Of a stretch of DNA of 32,187 bases, positions 1,648 through 12,134 are shown piece after piece. The notes beneath the pieces were generated by a model. The model saw nothing but the letters and a program-made list of their open reading frames with translations, did no database searches and was not told the DNA's origin. The translations under genes and the position numbers were made by a program. The DNA lies in NCBI GenBank assembly GCA_905479095.1, contig CAJQLD010000015.1, forward strand, positions 1 to 32,187, written 5' to 3'. The DNA is from an uncultured Flavobacteriaceae bacterium (GTDB taxonomy: Bacteria > Bacteroidota > Bacteroidia > Flavobacteriales > Flavobacteriaceae). Every line of letters begins with the position of its first letter. Positions within the stretch are counted from its first letter, which is position 1.

Positions 1648-4404
1648 TTAAAATCTTAGGCTTAGATTCATAAAATAGGTGGCGCCACGCCCATACCAGT
1701 ACTTCGGACCAAAACGACGTATTGGTTGATTGACATCGGTTTTAAGGGATCGATAATTAGCGTTCCGCCCTTGCTCAAAACCACCTGTTTTGTATTCTAT
1801 ATCAAGTAAGTTGTTTAAGCTCACAAACAGTCCTAGATATTTTTTGCCAATTCTCCATGACTTACCACCAACGGCATTAATCACCATATAACTGTCAAAT
1901 TTTTCTTGCGTTAGCAAGGCTCTGGCTAGTGTTGGGTCATAATCTGGAAAAGGAAATCCATCGGTCTCCAGGTAAAAGTTTTTAGTACGTGTGAGAGAGG
2001 AGATATCTAGATATGCATTTGAGAAAAAATTAGCCGTGGTCCCAAACCACCAATATTTAGGGTCTCGATACTCAAATCCGATAGAGGCTGCACGTTGAGG
2101 ACCGCCAGCAATTTTATAGTTTTTCAAATTGGCCTCCTCATAGTTTAATCCATTAGGGAAACTACTAGAAGTGAGCACTAAATTAGGATTGTTATTGTAG
2201 GTGAATTGACCCATTGAAAGGGCGCCTTTTAAGGCAATGGTTGGAGTCACTTGTGCTTCAATTCCAAACTCGAGGCCTAACTGTTTTTTGTCGACCCCTT
2301 GCAAGAGCTCTTGCACAAAAGCGGATTCTCCAAAAACGCCACTGAGTCCATCTGCATAAAAAAAGGAAATTTCGTTGGCGTCTTTTATGAGTGAATAATA
2401 GCCGGTCAAACGCGCTTTTAAAGTTGAGGATCTGTATCTATAATTAACATCCAAAGAGGTCGTTTTTTCGTCTGTAATATCGATTTTAGAAACCGCTCCA
2501 ATGATGGCGTGATTTTCTCTCGAGTTAGAAAACGTATTTCGAAGTGTGGGCGCTTTGGATAAATAGCCTGCGTTTGCTGTAAACAGATGCTTTCCAGAAA
2601 ACTTATACGTCAAGCCTCCTTTTGTACCGATGCCTGTAAAGTTGACTTTGGGGCCTTTTCCATAGGAGTTGTCCACATATATTTCATGTTGATAGAAGCC
2701 TTCTCTTTGATAGTCTGTTTTGGTGATGCTTGCGGCGATAAAAAAATCAACCTTATTATAAGTAAACTGCGCTTGTGCAAACCCGCCAAGAATTTTTGCC
2801 TCTAAATTATAGTTATATTTAAAGATATCGCCTTGGCCTACGATTTGATTGGGGTTCTTTAAGTTCAATTGAATCTGATCAAAAGAATCAATGTTTAAAT
2901 AGCCTGTGGTGCTTCCTAACATGTCCAAAATTTCGGCAAAATTATGAGATTGTAATCGCTTGTAATGGACGGCCGCATTTAAAACCAGGTGATCTGATCG
3001 TTCAGATTTAAAAATCGTGTTAAGGGTGAGTTGAGTGTCATCATTTCGATCTTCATACCACACATAGGCCGCAGGATCCCCATTGGTGTTGTTTGTGATG
3101 TTGGCATCGTACATTTGGTTCCAATCTAATTGACCCTCCGACGTGAAATTTTGATAAGCCTCATACGCGCCTGCTAGATCTGGGCCTCCAGAATTTGCTA
3201 AAAAATAACTGGGTAGATCTTGATAGTAGGCTGGACTTGGATTGGCGCCTCCTGCATAATCCAAACGGCTGTTTCCTAGTTCACCAAATTGGTAGGCAAT
3301 ATTTGTATTGAGTTTTGAACGATCTGAAATATTCCAATAATGATTCAACATCACTACAGGTTCTGAAATCCGTTTTACTCTCGAATTTCGCTTTCTCCCG
3401 TCTTGATATCCCCAATATTCATTATACTTAATGTTTTTCAAATCGTACACTTCTTGTGAATTTGGGGATGACTTTCCACGTCTATTGGGGGTGTAAAACG
3501 CCGTAAAATTTAGACTGTGATTCTTGTTGATTCTCTTTTCGACCGCCCCAAAAAAGGAATTCGCATCATAAAAGGTTCCGTCTTGATACCCTTCATTTCC
3601 CCAACGTCTTCCCAGTGAAAACACATAGGACCATCCCCCTTTTACAAGTCCCGATGCATAGGTCGCCAAAAGTCTGTTGGTATAACTTCGGTTCGATGAT
3701 GAATAGGTGATCCGACGACCACTTTGGTACTCTGACGCTCTTAAATTAATATTTGTGGACCCTAAAACGCCCCCAAAATTATAGGAAGATGCGGCGAGTC
3801 CAGAGGTTAATTCTTGATTCCGAAGGACATCATTCAACCCTCCCCAATTGCTCCATTGTGGTCTCCCATTGGATAGTTTGTTCATATCGATGCCATTCAT
3901 CAATAGTATCCCGTTTTCGGAATTTAGACCCCGTACATTAAAAAACGATGTGCTAAATTCAAAAGCGGCTGTCCGCTGAAAAATATCTTTAGACGATCCT
4001 AATAACCCAGAAATATTATCAACACCACTGTTGTCGTCATTTAATTCATCATCTGTTAGGGTAATGGTAAACAAGTCGTCATTTGAAGGGTCTACAGACA
4101 TCACCATATCTTGAATATCAAGCGTTTGACCTTCATAAACCACAATAGGATAGCGTGCTAAAAGATAGCCTGGCTTGGTTAATTTTAAGATGTGCTCCCC
4201 AATTGGGATATTGGACGAAAACTCAAACACACCTTCAGTATCTGTGTCCGTGCTTAATAACGATTCTTCAAATTCAACATGAACTCCGTGGAGCGGTTGG
4301 TTTGAGGTTAAGTTGTTTACACTTCCTCTAACAATCGTCTGTTGAGCTAGGGCCGCAAATGATACTAAAAAGCCTGTTAAACATAGTATATTAAGGTGTT
4401 TCAT
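1648..4404 (-). CDS. TonB-dependent receptor with CarboxypepD_reg-like domain
   Basis: About 918 residues. I place the start at ATG 4404 (MKHLNILCLTGF) because it begins directly with the signal peptide, ending around AALAQ; an upstream TTG would add eight non-signal residues. Domain order: signal peptide 1-21, carboxypeptidase-regulatory-like beta domain ~22-105, plug ~120-240 with the segment LLMNGIDMNKLSNGRPQWSN, then a ~650-residue beta barrel ending in aromatic FMNLSLRF, the usual outer-membrane C-terminal strand. It imports a substrate across the outer membrane using TonB-ExbB-ExbD energy. The substrate is unknown. The cotranscribed DUF5689 lipoprotein and divergent secreted nuclease suggest nucleic-acid breakdown products (inference). 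It is clearly paralogous to the receptor at 7840-10389. Confidence 0.9.
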   Translation of the reverse strand: MKHLNILCLTGFLVSFAALAQQTIVRGSVNNLTSNQPLHGVHVEFEESLLSTDTDTEGVFEFSSNIPIGEHILKLTKPGYLLARYPIVVYEGQTLDIQDMVMSVDPSNDDLFTITLTDDELNDDNSGVDNISGLLGSSKDIFQRTAAFEFSTSFFNVRGLNSENGILLMNGIDMNKLSNGRPQWSNWGGLNDVLRNQELTSGLAASSYNFGGVLGSTNINLRASEYQSGRRITYSSSNRSYTNRLLATYASGLVKGGWSYVFSLGRRWGNEGYQDGTFYDANSFFGAVEKRINKNHSLNFTAFYTPNRRGKSSPNSQEVYDLKNIKYNEYWGYQDGRKRNSRVKRISEPVVMLNHYWNISDRSKLNTNIAYQFGELGNSRLDYAGGANPSPAYYQDLPSYFLANSGGPDLAGAYEAYQNFTSEGQLDWNQMYDANITNNTNGDPAAYVWYEDRNDDTQLTLNTIFKSERSDHLVLNAAVHYKRLQSHNFAEILDMLGSTTGYLNIDSFDQIQLNLKNPNQIVGQGDIFKYNYNLEAKILGGFAQAQFTYNKVDFFIAASITKTDYQREGFYQHEIYVDNSYGKGPKVNFTGIGTKGGLTYKFSGKHLFTANAGYLSKAPTLRNTFSNSRENHAIIGAVSKIDITDEKTTSLDVNYRYRSSTLKARLTGYYSLIKDANEISFFYADGLSGVFGESAFVQELLQGVDKKQLGLEFGIEAQVTPTIALKGALSMGQFTYNNNPNLVLTSSSFPNGLNYEEANLKNYKIAGGPQRAASIGFEYRDPKYWWFGTTANFFSNAYLDISSLTRTKNFYLETDGFPFPDYDPTLARALLTQEKFDSYMVINAVGGKSWRIGKKYLGLFVSLNNLLDIEYKTGGFEQGRNANYRSLKTDVNQPIRRFGPKYWYGRGATYFMNLSLRF

Positions 4405-4448
4405 TGTTGATTTGGGGTTAATTAACAATAATTGACGGCCTTAATTTA

Positions 4449-4496: not shown

Positions 4497-5570
4497 ATGA
4501 AAAAAATTACGGTTTTAACCCTCAAACAAATTGCTCTCTTTGTGTTGGTATTCATTGTCAGTTTTGGCACGATTGACGCTCAGGATACCAAAAAATTTAA
4601 AGTACATACGATTGCATTTTATAATGTTGAAAATCTTTTCGATACCATTAACGATCCCAACAAGAATGACGAAGCCAGTCCAATCATGGAGCTTAAATTT
4701 GGGCGTGAGGAAGTCTATCTCAAAAAAGTCAAAAATATGGCGCGTGTGATTTCTGAAATTGGTGCCGATGTGTCCAAAAACACTCCTGCAATCATTGGTT
4801 TAGCAGAAGTTGAAAACCGATCTGTGGTTGAAGATCTTGCGAATGATTCTTTATTAGTTGACAAAGACTATGGCATTATCCATTTCGATTCACCTGACGA
4901 ACGTGGAATTGATGTGGCGCTGATGTATCAAAAGGCACTTTTTGACCCGATAGCTTCGAGTACGCATACATTAAATTTATTCAACGCTGAAGAAAATAGA
5001 CCCGATCATACCAGAGATCAACTTTTGGTTAGTGGGTATCTCGAAGGAGACCTCATTCACTTGATGGTAAATCACTGGCCTTCTCGACGTGGAGGCGAAG
5101 AAAAGAGTAGCCCCAAACGAGAGGCCGCAGCAAGACTCAGCAAACGCCTTACAGACTCACTACAATCGATTGATCCCTATGCAAAGATTTTTACAATGGG
5201 TGACTTAAATGACAATCCAACCAATAAAAGTTTGAAGAAAGTTCTCAAAACTAAAAGAAAGAAAAAGGCTGTTGGCTTAAAAGGCATTTACAATCCGATG
5301 GAAACCATTTATAAAAATGGAGGTGGAACGAATGCCTACCGCGGTGTTTGGTTTTTGTTTGATCAAATTTTAATGACGAAACCATTACTAGATAAAGACT
5401 TTTCCTCGTTTCGATTTTATAAAGCGGGCGTTTACAATAAACCTTATCTCTTAAACAAAGACGGACGTTTCAAGGGCTATCCTTTTAGAAGTTTTTCATA
5501 TGGAAAATTCATCGATGGGTACAGCGATCACTTTCCGGTCTATGTGCATGTGATTCGACAAGTGGACTAA
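4497..5570 (+). CDS. Secreted endonuclease/exonuclease/phosphatase-family protein
   Basis: A 357-residue protein with an N-terminal signal peptide (hydrophobic 11-28, cleavage near DAQ) followed by a complete EEP fold. The family's active-site residues are visible in order: Asn43 in FYNVENLFD, Glu104 in GLAEVEN, Arg136-Gly-Ile-Asp in ERGIDVALMY, His193 in VNHWPSRR, Asp236 and Asn238 in GDLNDNP, and Asp344-His345 in SDHFPV. Such enzymes are Mg-dependent phosphodiesterases or phosphatases acting on DNA, RNA or phospholipid head groups; the exact substrate cannot be read from sequence. Export places it in the periplasm or outside. It is divergent from the receptor/DUF5689 operon, sharing a 92-base control region, and ends at a strong hairpin at 5599-5629. 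Confidence 0.88.
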   Translation: MKKITVLTLKQIALFVLVFIVSFGTIDAQDTKKFKVHTIAFYNVENLFDTINDPNKNDEASPIMELKFGREEVYLKKVKNMARVISEIGADVSKNTPAIIGLAEVENRSVVEDLANDSLLVDKDYGIIHFDSPDERGIDVALMYQKALFDPIASSTHTLNLFNAEENRPDHTRDQLLVSGYLEGDLIHLMVNHWPSRRGGEEKSSPKREAAARLSKRLTDSLQSIDPYAKIFTMGDLNDNPTNKSLKKVLKTKRKKKAVGLKGIYNPMETIYKNGGGTNAYRGVWFLFDQILMTKPLLDKDFSSFRFYKAGVYNKPYLLNKDGRFKGYPFRSFSYGKFIDGYSDHFPVYVHVIRQVD

Positions 5571-5634: not shown

Positions 5635-6066
5635 TTAGTTTGGCCATACATTCCATGGAATTCTGGAGAGGATTAATAACAAAGCAATGGTATAAAACAC
5701 TGCAATCGTTTTGTATTTAGGCCCCGAAATAAGTTTCTTCTTGTGTTTAGAGTACCCAATAGTAATCAAGGCAACTGCTAAAATATTTATCGTTGGATGC
5801 TCTACAAGATATAGGCGGATGCTAGCATTTTTCATCACTTCACCTACGCCTAAGTCACTCCAAAGACCAAATCGGGACGAGGTAAAATACAACAGCAATC
5901 CAATCAATAATTGAATGTGTGAAACGATCAACGTAAAGAGTGCGACACGAAAGGCTTTGGCATCGTAGTCTTTTTTACCAAAGTAGCCCACTAGCGATTT
6001 AAAAACGGCCAATACGAGTACAACGAGTACTAGGTAAGCCCAATAGGAATGAATTGTTTTGATCAT
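5635..6066 (-). CDS. Conserved 4-helix membrane protein, cytochrome-b-like
   Basis: 143 residues starting MIKTIHSYWAYLVL, with four hydrophobic segments at about 8-27, 40-62, 88-105 and 117-137, so an inner-membrane protein. Several histidines lie at or near helix ends (His6, one in VSHIQLL, one in VEHPT), which could ligate heme or metal. Homologues in Flavobacteriia are, from memory, often labelled 'cytochrome B' without experimental support, so the function is unknown. It is monocistronic: a terminator lies upstream (6106-6138, for the preceding operon) and another at its own 3' end. It has no evident functional link to the receptors on either side. Confidence 0.75.
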   Translation of the reverse strand: MIKTIHSYWAYLVLVVLVLAVFKSLVGYFGKKDYDAKAFRVALFTLIVSHIQLLIGLLLYFTSSRFGLWSDLGVGEVMKNASIRLYLVEHPTINILAVALITIGYSKHKKKLISGPKYKTIAVFYTIALLLILSRIPWNVWPN

Positions 6067-6105
6067 GATATATCGTTTTTAGTTTATTAAATTTTGGGTG
6101 AAGAT

Positions 6106-6138
6106 AAAAAAAAGCCTCTTAGTAAACTAAGAGGCTTT
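6106..6138 (-). terminator. Intrinsic terminator of receptor-lipoprotein operon
   Basis: A 13-base perfect stem (AAAGCCTCTTAGT / ACTAAGAGGCTTT) with a 2-base centre, followed on the minus strand by a run of T residues (A-run at 6106-6113 on the plus strand). It lies 23 bases past the stop of the repeat lipoprotein gene. Confidence 0.85.
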
Positions 6139-6160
6139 TAAATTTAGAATGACAGATTGA

Positions 6161-7828
6161 TTATTCTTTATATAACCAAACACCACCCGTTTTAATCACC
6201 GTTTTGCTTTCAATACCAGTTGATCCAGTATAAACTACAAAATTTAGAGCATATTTTTGGCCTTCTGCGGCACTCGGATCTCTTGCGTCTAATAATACAT
6301 TAGCTGCTTCCAATAACATTTCGTCAGACCAGAAGTTTGAACTTCCACTTCTTCTGTCAAAACTTCCAAAGTAACCGACATTGTCTGCAGGTCCAGGATA
6401 GATATCAATGAACGCACTCGAGATTAAGTCAACATCAGCATCTAATAACATATATTTAATGGTATTGTCTGGTAACCATGCGCCATCTTCAAAACCATAC
6501 TGAAATGAAGTTTCAATAACATCTGGCGTTAAAGTCCATTTGTCGCCATCAAAAATACTATGTCCATATTTTGTTGAAGCGGATCCCGCGTAATAAGCAT
6601 ATTGTACCATGGCAACATCGCCTTGTTCAGCATATGGATATAAACTTTCTAAGAAAATATCAATAATATAAACACTACTACTTCCAAAGTTTGGATAATT
6701 AAACCCGAATGCATCGTAGTCTTTTGCTGTAAATACATAAGGGAATTCCCAATCTCCAGCATTCTTAGCCACGACTGTTGTTATTTCTACAATTGTTGCA
6801 TTTGCGATATAAGCACCTTCGGTATATAATAACGTCATCGTTTGTGTGCCAACAGAACCATTATAGATTTTATAGGTTACAGCGTATATATCGCCTTCTG
6901 TTGCCGTTGGTAAAATAATATTTAACCCTTCTAAAATCATAGCATCACTCCAGTAGTTATCAGATGTATCTCTTACATCAAAACTTCCATAACTTGAGGC
7001 ATTATCCGCCGGGCCAGGGTAAGACGCTGCTAATGCATCTCCTATTGTATCATAATCAGATGACCCTAAAGTGTACTCTGTAGCAGATGTTCCAGAAACC
7101 TCAACATCTAATTTTGAGAATCCGCTTCCAGTGTATTGAACCGTAAATGATTCAGAATAATTAGTTCCGCCGTCATAAATAGCAAACGTCACAGCCACCA
7201 CTTGTCCTGCACTATATTCACCACTTAATAACTCGTTAATACCTTCTAAAATCATTCCATCAGACCAATACGCATCTCTATCTGATCTTCTATCAAAGTT
7301 TGAGTAATTTGCTGCACTTGAAGCCGCTTCAGGATAAGAAGAACTTAAGGCATTCCCGATTTTTTCAAAATCACCTTCCGATAATTCATACGATAATACA
7401 TCCGCATTATACGTTAACTCTACAAAAGTTCCGTTTTCTGCAGTTTCGTAAGTACTCGCTAAATAGCCATCAACTTGATTTATATTTGATAAGGTCTCTG
7501 TCGTAGAAAGTACCTCTAATGTTGTTTCATCAAATAAGTTGTAAGTCACATTTACTAAGGAGCCTTCTCCCCATACGGGGTATTTATCCGCTAAAAAGCC
7601 AGGGATTAATTGATCTGCTTGCGCTTGTGTTTCAAAAAATTCCTCTTCGCTTAATTCAGTTTCAAAAAGCTCGTAATCTTCCGTAGTAAAGACGTAAGTC
7701 TCTACCGCTTGAATATAATCAAATCCTGGATTGTCAACTGAATCAAGATTGTTATAGATGTCTTCATTAGGTTCACAACCCATAAAGGTTGTTCCTAAAA
7801 TTGCTAAACAATAAATTATTTTTTTCAT
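6161..7828 (-). CDS. Repeat-containing lipoprotein, receptor partner, family unknown
   Basis: A 555-residue acidic protein with lipobox TTFMGC (Cys18). I do not recognise the family. It consists of about five diverged internal repeats. Each carries a strand motif of G, five residues, then V-x-[YF]: EGSLVNVTYNLF (88-99), AGQVVAVTFAIY (207-218), EGDIYAVTYKIY (311-322), QGDVAMVQYAYY (402-413) and EGQKYALNFVVY (522-533). Three repeats (about 147-235, 251-340, 457-553) also share YPGPADN-x(5)-FDRR and [YF]WSDxMxLE. Each repeat opens with a D-[YFV]-[DE] helix. The gene follows the receptor gene by 11 bases and ends at a terminator, so the two form an operon. A surface lipoprotein that binds the receptor's substrate is the natural inference; it does not look like SusD (no TPR-type helices). 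Low cysteine and high Tyr/Asp/Ser content fit an extracellular protein. Confidence 0.8.
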   Translation of the reverse strand: MKKIIYCLAILGTTFMGCEPNEDIYNNLDSVDNPGFDYIQAVETYVFTTEDYELFETELSEEEFFETQAQADQLIPGFLADKYPVWGEGSLVNVTYNLFDETTLEVLSTTETLSNINQVDGYLASTYETAENGTFVELTYNADVLSYELSEGDFEKIGNALSSSYPEAASSAANYSNFDRRSDRDAYWSDGMILEGINELLSGEYSAGQVVAVTFAIYDGGTNYSESFTVQYTGSGFSKLDVEVSGTSATEYTLGSSDYDTIGDALAASYPGPADNASSYGSFDVRDTSDNYWSDAMILEGLNIILPTATEGDIYAVTYKIYNGSVGTQTMTLLYTEGAYIANATIVEITTVVAKNAGDWEFPYVFTAKDYDAFGFNYPNFGSSSVYIIDIFLESLYPYAEQGDVAMVQYAYYAGSASTKYGHSIFDGDKWTLTPDVIETSFQYGFEDGAWLPDNTIKYMLLDADVDLISSAFIDIYPGPADNVGYFGSFDRRSGSSNFWSDEMLLEAANVLLDARDPSAAEGQKYALNFVVYTGSTGIESKTVIKTGGVWLYKE

Positions 7829-7839
7829 TATCTTATTTT

Positions 7840-10389
7840 TTAGAAGTTAAGTTTTGCTCCGATACTAAATGTTCTTCCGTAACCATAGTAAACCAAAGCA
7901 GTGTTGGCTGTTGAACCTGATCCGTCATTGGCATCAGAAATATATTCTGTATCAAACACATTGTTCATACGAGCTGTTAAAGTTGTTTCAAAAGGTCCGA
8001 AATCAAAGGTGTGACTGATCACGGTATCAAACAAGCTATAGTCAGGCATTTTCCATGCATCAGGTGCTCCTTGTGTCCCTCTATCACTCGGGTCAAATTG
8101 CGCGTAAAGATCCGCGTAGTAATTGTAATCGATCACGAATCGTGTTTTAGGCGTTAATTTATAATTAATCCCTAAAGCCATTGTTGTTTGAGCGGCATCC
8201 GCTACATGTAAATCTTTTATAAATAAGTTTACAGTGTCTACCACATTTTGATCTTCATCAATGATATCAACGTCTGCTACATTACTATCCCATCTCCAGT
8301 CTCCTAAAGAGGCCATTCCTGTAATTCTTAATTTGTCAGTGGCTCTGTAAACAAAATCCAATTCAATTCCAGTGTGAATTGCATTTACCCCTAAAATATT
8401 AGCATAAGCAATGGTTTCGTCAGGTTGACGGAAACTTTGTGTTTCTGTTCTGTCTTCCCAAGCTGTAGAATATAAATTTACATTGGCAGATAATTTCGTT
8501 GAACGAAATCCGTATCCTAACTCAAAACTTGTAATTTTTTGGTTTTCAGCGTCTTTATTAAGATTTTGATTCCCGTTGTTTAAAAATACAGCGCCAAATT
8601 CTGGTGCTTTTTCGAAGTACCCTACGTTTGCAAAAACATTGTGTTTTTGACCTATTCTATAATTTGCACCCCCTTTAACACTGTACCCTAGAAAATTGTA
8701 AGTATCAGTCGTTTGTAATGGATCCGAATCTAAAAACTTGAAGTAATCAACCCTTTGGTAAGAAGTGTTTGAAACTGCTAAAGAGATGAACGTGTTAAAG
8801 TCTTCGTTCACATCATATTCTAATTGACTAAAAGCGCCTAACCAGCCTACGTTTCCATCGTTATTATAACTTCTTTTATCACCAACTTGCAATGCTGCAT
8901 TTGGGTTGTTTACATCGCTATCATCAAAGAAATACTGACCTCCTAACAAGTCCGTAACTGTTTGGTAATGCTTTCCTGTATAATCTCTCCAATCCAATCC
9001 AGTTAATAAGACTAAATCATCCGTTAAGTCTGTTTTTAACGTTGACAAGACCCCAAACCAGTTGTGATCATTATGAGACGCTCTTAAAATAGTTTCAGAA
9101 CCATTTGCACCACTGGCAATGTTTTCGTCTACAATTTTATCAAAATTTATAGCGCCGTATAATCCATCTCGGTAATCACTTTGACCGTTAGATTCAAATG
9201 TAAATTTGTTAGTTCCAGCAGTTCCACCGCCACCACCAGTTCCGTAGGAAGCATAAGCAACAGTTGATAAGCTTGTTTTGTCGCTAATTGTCCAATAGTG
9301 GTTTAAAGACATTTGAGGTTTGTTGTAGAAATTATCTTCTTGGTGTGTAACTTGTCCGTTCTTGTAACCCCAATCAGCATTGAACTTTCTTCCTCTTTCA
9401 GAATTTCTGAATGTTTGAATTAATTGTCTGTTTTGTCGTTGACCATGACGTTGTTTAGCGCCAAATACAGAAAATGAGATTTTGTGAGCGTCATTGATTT
9501 CTTTAGAAAGATTCAGGAAGTAAGAAACGCCGCTAAACTCTGTTCCATCGACATATCCATTTCCAGTTGTTCTTGCTGCAGAAACAGTCGCTGCAAGACC
9601 ACTATCCATAACTCCAGTTGAATATAACAACCCAAGTTTTTCATAGCCATCGTTGGCGATAGAAGTAAATATTTTCCCTCCAGTTTCAACATCTGTTGTT
9701 TTTGTAATCACGTTGATCGTTCCACCAATAGATGGGACCGCTACTTTAGAAGCTCCAAGGCCTCTTTGCACCTGCATTGAAGAAGTCACATCTCCAAGAC
9801 CAGCCCAGTTAGACCAATAGACACGACCGTTTTCCATGTCGTTTACTGGAATTCCGTTAATCATTACCGCAACGTTTTCAGAACTAAACCCTCTAAGGTT
9901 AATTCGACCGTCACCATATCCACCACCTGCTTTGGTCGCATAGACTCCTGGCGTTGATTTTAAAATTTCTGGAAATTCTTGAGTTCCTAATTTGAGCTCA
10001 ATTTCAGCAGATTTTAGTGTAGAAACCGCTACTGGCGTTTTTCTGTCCACTGCTACAGAAGCAATAATTTGAACTTCTTCTAAACCAAATTCACTAGCTT
10101 CTAGTGCCATTGAACCGAGGTCCAAGTTTCCTGAAAAAGAAACAGTCATTGATACATACCCAACATAAGAAACAACAACCTCTCCAGATGCGTTTTTAGT
10201 GTTGAATGTAAAATTCCCGTCAAAATCAGCAGAAACGCCATTGGACGTCCCCTTTTCAACAATCGTAGCACCTGGTAAAGGCACTTGTTGTCCAGCATCG
10301 ATAACTGTACCTGATACAGTGCTTTGTGCAGCAACTGATACCGTACATGCCATCAAGGCAATAGATAAAATCTGTGTAAGTTTTTTCAT
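7840..10389 (-). CDS. TonB-dependent receptor with CarboxypepD_reg-like domain
   Basis: 849 residues. Signal peptide 1-21 ends in SVAAQ, followed by the carboxypeptidase-regulatory-like domain ~23-110 (GTVIDAGQQVPLPGATIVEK and a VSYVGY strand), then a plug ~115-235 containing STPGVYATKAGGGYGDGRIN, MINGIPVNDMENGRVYWSNW and GGTINVITKTT, then the barrel. The C-terminal strand RTFSIGAKLNF ends in Phe as expected for BAM-dependent insertion. A Gly-rich run (about GTGGGGGTAG) lies in an extracellular loop region. It is the first gene of an operon with the repeat lipoprotein and has a good -33/-7 promoter at 10429-10459. The substrate is unknown. The plug and several barrel segments align by eye with the receptor at 1648-4404, so this is an adjacent paralogue. 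Confidence 0.92.
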   Translation of the reverse strand: MKKLTQILSIALMACTVSVAAQSTVSGTVIDAGQQVPLPGATIVEKGTSNGVSADFDGNFTFNTKNASGEVVVSYVGYVSMTVSFSGNLDLGSMALEASEFGLEEVQIIASVAVDRKTPVAVSTLKSAEIELKLGTQEFPEILKSTPGVYATKAGGGYGDGRINLRGFSSENVAVMINGIPVNDMENGRVYWSNWAGLGDVTSSMQVQRGLGASKVAVPSIGGTINVITKTTDVETGGKIFTSIANDGYEKLGLLYSTGVMDSGLAATVSAARTTGNGYVDGTEFSGVSYFLNLSKEINDAHKISFSVFGAKQRHGQRQNRQLIQTFRNSERGRKFNADWGYKNGQVTHQEDNFYNKPQMSLNHYWTISDKTSLSTVAYASYGTGGGGGTAGTNKFTFESNGQSDYRDGLYGAINFDKIVDENIASGANGSETILRASHNDHNWFGVLSTLKTDLTDDLVLLTGLDWRDYTGKHYQTVTDLLGGQYFFDDSDVNNPNAALQVGDKRSYNNDGNVGWLGAFSQLEYDVNEDFNTFISLAVSNTSYQRVDYFKFLDSDPLQTTDTYNFLGYSVKGGANYRIGQKHNVFANVGYFEKAPEFGAVFLNNGNQNLNKDAENQKITSFELGYGFRSTKLSANVNLYSTAWEDRTETQSFRQPDETIAYANILGVNAIHTGIELDFVYRATDKLRITGMASLGDWRWDSNVADVDIIDEDQNVVDTVNLFIKDLHVADAAQTTMALGINYKLTPKTRFVIDYNYYADLYAQFDPSDRGTQGAPDAWKMPDYSLFDTVISHTFDFGPFETTLTARMNNVFDTEYISDANDGSGSTANTALVYYGYGRTFSIGAKLNF

Positions 10390-10514: not shown

Positions 10515-12134
10515 TTAATTGTTACCTAGGTAATGGTTTAATAGATTGGAGGTAGAAGCATCATGCTTGGTAATTGAGCTGGTATTAATTTCATGTAAAA
10601 TTTTTGTTGCTAATTGTTTACCTAATTCAACTCCAAATTGATCAAAACTATAGATATTCCAAACCACGCCTTGAACAAAAATCTTATGTTCATACATCGC
10701 AATCAGCTTTCCTAAGCTTTCAGGAGTTAGTTGGTTAATAAGTAAGGTATTTGTGGGTTTATTCCCTGCAAACACTTTAAAAGGAATGATTTCTGGGGCA
10801 GTCCCTTCTGCGACCACCTCATCCTTTGTTTTACCATTTAATAAAGCTTCTGTTTGGGCAAAATAATTAGAAATCAACTTGTCTTGATGGTCTTTGTTGC
10901 CATGCAACGATTTTGTAAACCCTATAAAATCTGCAGGAATCAATTTAGTTCCTTGGTGAATCAACTGAAAAAAGGCATGTTGAGAATTGGTTCCGGGCTC
11001 GCCCCAAATTAAATTCCCTGTGTCGTAGCCAACTTCATTTCCTGATCGGTCAATACTTTTACCATTACTTTCCATAATGGCTTGTTGTAAATAGGTCGCA
11101 AATTGATTCAAGTATTGAGTGTAAGGGATTATAGCTTCACTTTCTGCCTCGAAAAAATTATTATACCAAATGCTCAAAAATGCGAGTACTGTTGGAATGT
11201 TTGTTTCAAATTCTTCCTCCCTAAAATGGGTGTCCATTTTATGAGCGCCTTCTAAAAGGGATTCGAAATTGTCATGCCCAACTGCCAAACTAATGCTTAA
11301 ACCAACGGCGCTCCAAAGTGAAAAACGTCCGCCTACCCAATCCCACATCGGAAAAATATTGGAGGCCTCAATTCCAAAGGCTTCTACTTTGGCCGTGTTT
11401 GTTGAAACTGCTACAAAATGCTTTGCCACATCATCCTGAGTGGCGTGTTTTAAAAACCAGTCTCTAATTGTTGTGGCGTTTGATAATGTTTCCTGCGTTG
11501 TAAATGTTTTAGAGACAATCACAAACAGTGTTGTTTCTGGATTAAGCGTCTTTAAGACTTCGTTGACATGATCTCCATCGACATTGCTTACAAAATGTGG
11601 TTTTAGATGATTGCCATAAAAAGCCAACGAATCGACCACCATGGCTGGCCCTAAATCTGAACCACCAATTCCGATATTCACAACATCGGTGAATGCTTTG
11701 TTAGAAAATCCTTTTTTGGTGCCGTTAATAATAGCATCCGAAAAGTTTTTCATTAAGGCCTTGACCTTATATATTTCGGGAATAACATTAACACCATCCA
11801 CAAGAATTTTGGAGTTTTCTGGCGCACGAAGCGCTGTATGCATCACCGCTCTACCTTCTGTTTGGTTGATGGTATCCCCTTCAAAATAACTTGAAACGGC
11901 GTCCTTAAGTTTAATCTCTTCCGCTAATTCTTTGAAAAGTTGCATGGTTTCAGAAGTCATTCTATTTTTTGAGAAATCGACGTAAAAGTCGTCCCATTTA
12001 ATTGTGAATTCATCCGCTCGCCCAGGGTTTTGTTCAAACCATGTTTTCATATGATCGTCTTTGATTGCTTCAAAGTGGTCTTTTAATTTGTCCCAAGCTT
12101 TAGTTTGAGTTGGGTTTATTGAATTTAATGCCAT
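10515..12134 (-). CDS. pgi: Glucose-6-phosphate isomerase
   Basis: 539 residues, the normal length for the long bacterial/eukaryotic-type PGI. It interconverts glucose 6-phosphate and fructose 6-phosphate in glycolysis and gluconeogenesis in the cytoplasm. Family signatures are all present: [15 protein letters not shown], the phosphate-binding [25 protein letters not shown] (PGI signature 1), MESNGKS with the catalytic-region Glu, [11 protein letters not shown] with the catalytic-region His, and VELGKQLA near the C-terminus. It is the last gene of the DUF3108-TDO-M23-pgi operon, starting 18 bases after the M23 stop. No terminator hairpin is visible before the next promoter region. Confidence 0.97.

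Follow-up and report, generated by a model that had tools for sequence, protein, structure and literature searches.

We describe a repeat lipoprotein from a marine flavobacterium which represents an undescribed family inside a known kind of architecture and which is paired, one to one, with a TonB-dependent receptor (TDR1). On balance, with slightly better than an even chance, we take the lipoprotein to be the ligand-capture partner of the TDR1 TonB importer, most likely for DNA or other nucleic-acid fragments. The window, meaning the whole stretch of DNA analyzed, spans 32,187 nucleotides of an uncultured Flavobacteriaceae bacterium (contig CAJQLD010000015.1), and the coordinates of its features are given in Table 1.

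The initial annotation had proposed a 555-residue lipoprotein, encoded 11 bases downstream of a receptor gene in a terminated operon, and all three elements are borne out: the minus-strand reading frame at 6161–7828 encodes 555 amino acids with a lipobox cysteine at residue 18, it starts 11 bases past the stop of the frame at 7840–10389 and it is followed by a 13-bp hairpin and T-tract at 6139–6110. Lipoboxes were called by pattern search and by eye, with no dedicated predictor; 38 of the 39 family members, the window protein among them, show the pattern with the cysteine near residue 18, and in the 39th, L020, the pattern missed a VGC that was spotted by eye. Lipoproteins exported to the surface of Bacteroidota carry an acidic export signal behind the cysteine. 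Acidic residues stand directly behind Cys18 of the repeat lipoprotein, which may be surface exposed, and the protein as a whole has a pronounced acidic character, with a pI of 4.05 and a net charge of −65.

Table 1. Features of the locus in the window, in order of position
Feature	Position	Strand	Evidence and remarks
DUF5689 lipoprotein, 308 aa	699..1625	-	Likely orthologue of RA0C_RS04920 (PMC8459023)
TDR2 receptor-like outer-membrane protein	1648..4428	-	Likely orthologue of Riemerella RA0C_RS04915 (PMC8459023)
Endonuclease/exonuclease/phosphatase (EEP, Exo_endo_phos_3), probably secreted	4497..5570	+	Pfam 5.3e-111; signal peptide by eye only
143-aa membrane protein, conserved in locus	5635..6066	-	No Pfam/NCBIfam family above cut-off
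Terminator-like hairpin and T-tract 3' of lipoprotein gene	6110..6139	-	13-bp hairpin
Repeat lipoprotein ('q')	6161..7828	-	555 aa; lipobox Cys18; no known family matched
Unit 6, residues 456-555, long	6164..6463	-	Source of unit HMM; hhalign; AlphaFold2 of residues 436-555
Unit 5, residues 360-436, short	6521..6751	-	Unit 6 HMM 12.2 bits over half; hhalign vs window-type unit 6 92.6%, unit 1 94.2%, unit 2 54%
Unit 4, residues 249-343, long, YPGPADN...FDVR...YWSD	6800..7084	-	Unit 6 HMM 93.9 bits; hhalign vs window-type unit 6 99.9%
Unit 3, residues 143-240, long, YPEAA...FDRR...YWSD	7109..7402	-	Unit 6 HMM 64.5 bits; hhalign vs window-type unit 6 99.9%
Unit 2, residues 101-143, degenerate short	7400..7528	-	hhalign vs window-type unit 1 94.1%, short-form unit 2 96.2%; vs window-type units 3/4/6 2-7%
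Unit 1, residues 42-100, short type	7529..7705	-	hhalign vs short-form unit 2 94.8%, short-form unit 5 97.2%; vs window-type units 4/6 10-12%
Signal peptide and lipobox, residues 1-18, ending FMGC, then acidic EPNEDIY	7775..7828	-	Read from sequence; 39 family members alike
TDR1 TonB-dependent receptor, 849 aa, partner	7840..10389	-	CarbopepD_reg_2, Plug and barrel domains above cut-off; 11 bases upstream of lipoprotein gene; 1:1 linkage
Phosphoglucose isomerase, upstream neighbour in 51/56 loci	10515..12134	-	Function probably unrelated

No Pfam or NCBIfam family matched the window protein above cut-off, nor did any NCBIfam family match three relatives (L006, L007 and L143), in keeping with the original suggestion of an undescribed family; the refuting outcome named with that suggestion, a clear match to a characterized family with known ligand, did not arise. 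A Pfam FlgE_3rd match (E 0.19, 12.4 bits versus a cut-off of 27) is attributed to chance. No relatives were found in the PDB by phmmer (best E 0.44), and PDB searches with unit and two-unit profiles gave best E values of 0.13 and 0.044, which we judged to be chance; relatives were also absent from the viral contigs searched. None of the papers listed by literature searches dealt with the family, which has no name, and its absence from print is hence unproven; the accessible part of a paper on the flavobacterial BAM complex names no protein that can be tied to it (PMC12611786).

Profile–profile comparison with reversed controls links all the units and so supports an array of six homologous units, the second of them degenerate, where five had been counted and unit 2 overlooked. 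When an HMM was built from the last unit of the 39 family members, with the window copy among them, it picked up three more copies in the window protein (64.5, 93.9 and 12.2 bits) and a non-significant fourth (1.9 bits). With hhalign, the window-type long units 3, 4 and 6 matched one another at 99.9% probability, unit 5 matched units 1, 3, 4 and 6 at 93–96% and unit 2 at 54%, and unit 1 matched units 2, 3 and 5 at 83–94% but, taken by itself, was weak against units 4 and 6 (10–12%). Unit 2, taken by itself, was likewise weak against units 3, 4 and 6 (2–7%) but matched unit 2 of the short relatives at 96% and unit 1 at 94%. Within short relatives, five of six unit pairs reached 94–98%, and units 5 and 6 gave 30%. 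Forward scores were 178–215 among different long units and 14–89 among the remaining different-unit pairs, compared to a maximum of 10.9 for reversed-sequence controls.

Sequence motifs follow the same array. The motif initially written as G-x5-V-x-[YF] has zero literal matches, the positions quoted for it lying one residue before the glycine; the real motif, G-x4-[VL]-x-[YF], matches seven times, with six matches in unit position (89, 133, 208, 312, 403 and 523), including one (133) in the unit overlooked earlier, and a seventh (479) within YPGPADN. Shuffled sequences gave a mean of 0.83 and a maximum of six matches, with 0 of 5,000 reaching seven. As reported, [YF]WSDxMxLE occurs in three units (187, 292 and 499), and it never arose in 2,000 shuffles. 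YPGPADN and FDRR had also been assigned to three units; each is exact in two (270 and 477 for the former, 178 and 490 for the latter), and the third copies read YPEAASS and FDVR. The repeat array as such is therefore upheld by profile comparison, reversed controls and motif shuffles, and although the biased composition (net charge −65 across 555 residues) might suggest that it is a mere artefact of acidic sequence, this reading is refuted, with negligible probability left to it, by unit scores far above the reversed controls, by the shuffles and by the confident predicted fold of one unit.

AlphaFold2 modeled the full lipoprotein (window and six relatives) at a mean pLDDT of 69.2 and pTM of 0.32. 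Strand–helix–strand elements recur along the predicted chain, so that structure prediction, proposed earlier as a check for a repeated fold, does reveal repeated alpha/beta elements. At this pTM the arrangement of units is unreadable from the model, and a fold search with the full model gave no match at E ≤ 0.001 (best Z 4.8). Residues 436–555, modeled from an alignment of 17 rows (the window and L002–L007), reached pLDDT 88.7 and pTM 0.79, with three predicted strands followed by three helices and three strands. Foldseek found no match to this unit among solved structures at E ≤ 0.001, and the best VIA-align match (Z 3.9, rmsd 2.5, 67 residues) is no clear structural match.

The 61 distinct family sequences comprise 22 of 357–390 amino acids, one of 470 and 38 of 545–621. 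Short forms consist of four units, while long forms contain either two extra long units (the window type) or a different domain in the middle. The first and last units are thus kept, and between them lie two long units, a DUF5017-like domain or neither; the aromatic and polar motifs of the long units (YP..., FD.R and WS..M) are conserved between copies. Multivalent binding of a polymeric ligand, as first suggested, may occur; since the number of units varies (four or six) and some members have a DUF5017-like middle, a fixed array is unnecessary. Of 22 members scanned, 7 matched DUF5017 at E ≤ 0.1; a POT1 match in one of the 22 (best E 0.0041) was too weak for use. In seven genomes belonging to the order, a profile of the middle part also picks up the protein encoded immediately downstream of TDR2. 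Compared to the C-terminus of DUF5689 lipoproteins, the middle domain matched at 99.0% probability and E 3e-18 (best reversed control 0.1%), using a DUF5689 profile of 36 rows, two of which (L084 11531–12739 and L086 10776–12143) had been admitted on length and are probably not DUF5689 proteins. Judged by these profiles, the DUF5017-like middle domain and the C-terminal part of DUF5689 lipoproteins are homologous.

The pairing of the lipoprotein with TDR1 is well supported, and the consistent receptor linkage across genomes, named at the outset as a supporting outcome, is seen. A two-unit profile detected the repeat lipoprotein in 64 of the 299 Flavobacteriaceae genomes; among the 249 good genomes the number was 56. 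With TDR1 as the query, 64 genomes scored at least 836.6 bits and the best genome without the lipoprotein scored 675.1 bits, and the cut for the TDR1 clade was set after this gap was seen; the genome sets with the lipoprotein and with a TDR1-clade receptor are identical (64 = 64, of 299). In 63 of the 64 genomes the two genes are close neighbors on one contig and one strand, with 528–1264 bases from the end of the receptor to the C-terminal-profile match of the lipoprotein, and in the remaining genome they are on two contigs. TDR1 is directly upstream in 56/56 loci, a set that takes in the window and three near-identical relatives, and 33 of them have 11 or 12 bases between the genes. A quick-search tree was built from 56 TDR1 proteins with and 22 without the partner lipoprotein, plus four TDR2 outgroup rows; in it the partnered receptors form one side of a branch (SH-aLRT 99), and no family lipoprotein was detected in any of the 22 loci with TDR1-like receptors from genomes outside the lipoprotein set.

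Beyond the family the lipoprotein is rare: a search of 237 genomes of the class gave three matches to it, one of them outside Flavobacteriaceae, and 15 of 148 genomes matched in a search of the order, seven solely via the middle domain. Outlying copies (L143, L144 and L145) sit directly behind a TDR1-type receptor; a weak match in G315 was rejected, as its stretch (L147) holds no family member. Two loci (L106 and L049) have two TDR1-type receptors in tandem ahead of the lipoprotein.

By several measures the pair resembles SusC–SusD systems: the lipoprotein gene lies directly downstream of a TonB receptor with a CarboxypepD_reg-like domain, the two are paired 1:1 and a capture role is probable for the repeat lipoprotein. 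TDR1 scores above the Pfam cut-off for both Plug (53.3 bits) and barrel (55.7 bits), as expected of a TonB-dependent receptor, but reaches only 81.2 bits versus a cut-off of 368.25 for the SusC/RagA model NCBIfam TIGR04056. SusD proteins have a mostly alpha-helical, TPR-rich fold that caps the SusC barrel. In contrast, the confidently predicted repeat unit combines six strands with three helices, the lipoprotein strings together a variable number of such alpha/beta units, and no SusD family appears among its listed matches in Pfam or NCBIfam (up to E 1), which agrees with the earlier impression that the protein is unlike SusD.

The usual gene order is isomerase (51/56), TDR1, repeat lipoprotein, Endonuclease I lipoprotein, 143-aa membrane protein, EEP on the other strand, TDR2 and DUF5689 lipoprotein. 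In 29/56 loci the lipoprotein gene is followed on the same strand, no more than 450 bases away, by an Endonuclease I gene, and among loci with sufficient downstream sequence the 143-aa gene is present in 45/54, the EEP gene in 32/46, TDR2 in 31/46 and the DUF5689 gene in 26/41. Six stretches (L057, L061, L063, L100, L102 and L117) have a second EEP-type gene on the opposite strand behind the DUF5689 gene. In L002 and L003 a terminator-like hairpin stands between the lipoprotein gene and the Endonuclease I gene; a common transcript is therefore not required, and we dropped Endonuclease I as a co-transcribed third gene. The window itself lacks Endonuclease I: the gene is found in L002 (7749–9350), whose lipoprotein is 93% identical, and is missing from the window (6067–6160), L004 and L005; it seems to have been lost cleanly from the interval that separates the terminator from the 143-aa gene. 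Endonuclease I surface nucleases (PF04231) would share with the present system the extracellular cutting of DNA tied to DNA uptake, but differ in being encoded by a separate neighbor gene in about half of loci. To our knowledge, NucM of Moraxella lies outside PF04231. The available text of one study describes NucM as an entry nuclease of the betabetaalpha-metal type (PMC6384898).

TDR2 and the DUF5689 lipoprotein connect the locus to natural transformation. According to the accessible text of a study on Riemerella anatipestifer, markerless deletion of RA0C_RS04915 or RA0C_RS04920 abolishes natural transformation, zero pilus homologues were found and the receptor-like protein and lipoprotein were proposed for uptake (PMC8459023). 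We consider TDR2 and the DUF5689 lipoprotein likely orthologues of these two genes because a Riemerella-like genome (G497, 2.16 Mb) encodes RecA, ComEC, EEP, TDR2 and a DUF5689 lipoprotein with DUF5017 in the order and spacing of the published Riemerella tags. Against the M949_1556 family model (cut-off 475), the DUF5689 lipoprotein of this genome reaches 599 bits, and the proteins here are 34% (TDR2), 25% (DUF5689, from L004) and 40% (EEP) identical to their Riemerella-like counterparts. The window DUF5689 lipoprotein (308 aa) lacks the C-terminal domain that is present in the 471-aa version of L004, whose repeat lipoprotein is 98% identical to that of the window.

The TDR2–DUF5689 pair is, like the TDR1 pair, a receptor-like protein with a lipoprotein, often at the same locus, and DUF5689 lipoproteins share the DUF5017-like domain with some repeat-family members. 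The two systems are nonetheless distinct: TDR1 and TDR2 are distant paralogues (24% identity), neither the DUF5689 nor the M949_1556 model is listed for the window lipoprotein, nor in NCBIfam for L006, L007 and L143, and the Riemerella-like stretch of G497 has neither TDR1 nor a repeat lipoprotein. Because TDR2 is near-universal (258/299 Flavobacteriaceae, and 190/197 genomes of another family in the order), we rejected its co-occurrence as evidence for the pair and counted position alone. Proximity of comEC to TDR2 is not a general rule among 20 genomes looked at. Within genus code g289, comEC is close by in G497, G509 and G518, about 12 kb off in G452 and on another contig in G482, and the TDR2 place of G525 was not among the matches listed; on the stretches L083, L084 and L085, from three genomes of this genus code (one of 2,164,087 bases), comEC lies a few genes from the EEP–TDR2–DUF5689 group, as the R. 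anatipestifer tags imply.

Five pairs have moved away from the usual locus (L007, L112, L113, L143 and L146), and the lipoprotein and TDR1 remain adjacent in all five, as they do on two short contigs (L144 and L145). A nuclease neighbors 3/5 relocated pairs: Endonuclease I is next to the pair in L112 and L113, and in L146 (6702–12572) an S1/P1 nuclease gene diverges from TDR1, with a metallophosphoesterase beyond the lipoprotein. No recognized nuclease was found among the neighbors scanned of L007 and L143.

We propose that the repeat lipoprotein would sit at the cell surface beside TDR1, in the place of SusD but built from a different repeated alpha/beta unit, where it may contact the receptor and cap its barrel. 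The array would bind its ligand outside the cell and pass it to TDR1, which would import it with TonB energy, the direction of transport being presumed. The best pointer to the ligand comes from the wider locus, with its nucleases and transformation genes, which the initial annotation did not take in, and from this genomic context nucleic acid is the likeliest candidate: extracellular DNA, or fragments released by nearby-encoded nucleases (Endonuclease I, EEP and, in one genome, S1/P1). Uptake would serve nutrition or operate alongside the TDR2–DUF5689 transformation system. Several observations weigh against nucleic acid, namely TDR1-like receptors without the lipoprotein, a Riemerella-like stretch with neither member of the pair, the hairpin ahead of Endonuclease I in L002 and L003, a window without Endonuclease I and the lack of a recognized nuclease among the scanned neighbors at L007 and L143. 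The M949_1556 family, named after a Riemerella protein and corresponding to the DUF5689 lipoprotein family of NCBIfam, is also cited, in the accessible parts of its literature, for antigenicity, pathogenicity and lipopolysaccharide, which further counts against a DNA reading. Lastly, the acidity of the repeat lipoprotein argues against binding of the DNA backbone by charge, but is not decisive because a low pI is shared by two other lipoproteins, DUF5689 of L004 (4.31) and Endonuclease I of L002 (4.05).

A possible, if doubtful, alternative is that the pair imports a ligand that is no nucleic acid (a glycan, peptide, siderophore or metal complex, for instance) and that its neighborhood is mostly inherited gene order. 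Some housekeeping neighbors are as constant as the DNA-linked ones; phosphoglucose isomerase and the likewise conserved M23 peptidase and DUF3108 genes have no DNA link, and as the isomerase (51/56) is a steadier neighbor than TDR2 (31/46), synteny may partly reflect slow change in gene order. Lipoprotein-free TDR1-like receptors occupy the same place, 1.7–4.3 kb upstream of TDR2 in 23/36 genomes (among the matches listed, positions copied by eye). At the 22 lipoprotein-free loci, the 143-aa gene lies behind the receptor in 20 and TDR2 is in the stretch in 16, with the isomerase missing in several, so that conservation of the 143-aa protein behind TDR1 does not depend on the lipoprotein. The locus is probably older than the lipoprotein, which goes with one TDR1 clade by gain there or loss elsewhere. 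The relocated pair of L113 retains the 143-aa gene as well, indicating that gene blocks can move in the absence of shared function, and acidity would suit a cationic or metal-bridged ligand. In favor of nucleic acid, however, are the nucleases beside relocated pairs and the distribution of Endonuclease I, which is found anywhere in the stretch at 31/56 loci with the lipoprotein versus 0/22 without (Fisher p 1.2e-6, kinship ignored) and whose presence requires at least 11 changes on the receptor tree.

It is also conceivable, though unlikely, that the lipoprotein binds no ligand and is instead a structural or assembly partner of TDR1 (a lid, stabilizer or nuclease-docking scaffold), which would be compatible with either class of ligand. 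The strict 1:1 linkage fits such a role, and exchange of the middle with retention of the first and last units is expected if the ends alone touch the receptor, but conservation of the long-unit motifs between copies is what would be expected of a binding surface.

Under the preferred reading, in which the lipoprotein captures nucleic-acid fragments for TDR1, the pair may extend what is known of DNA uptake in this group. A bolder version, which we regard as speculative and rather improbable as it stands, is that TDR1 and the lipoprotein form a second, undescribed TonB-driven system by which Flavobacteriia import DNA or oligonucleotides, parallel to TDR2–DUF5689; in it the unit would be a new nucleic-acid- or nucleotide-binding fold and its copy number would tune the length of DNA captured after cutting by surface nucleases. 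Independently of the ligand, the family adds a repeat domain with no recognized solved relative and a unit number that differs between species. To the question of how DNA passes the outer membrane of Flavobacteriia our analysis contributes a second receptor–lipoprotein pair, which often shares the locus of the first and often has nucleases nearby, and this small two-gene unit could be deleted for testing DNA foraging or uptake.
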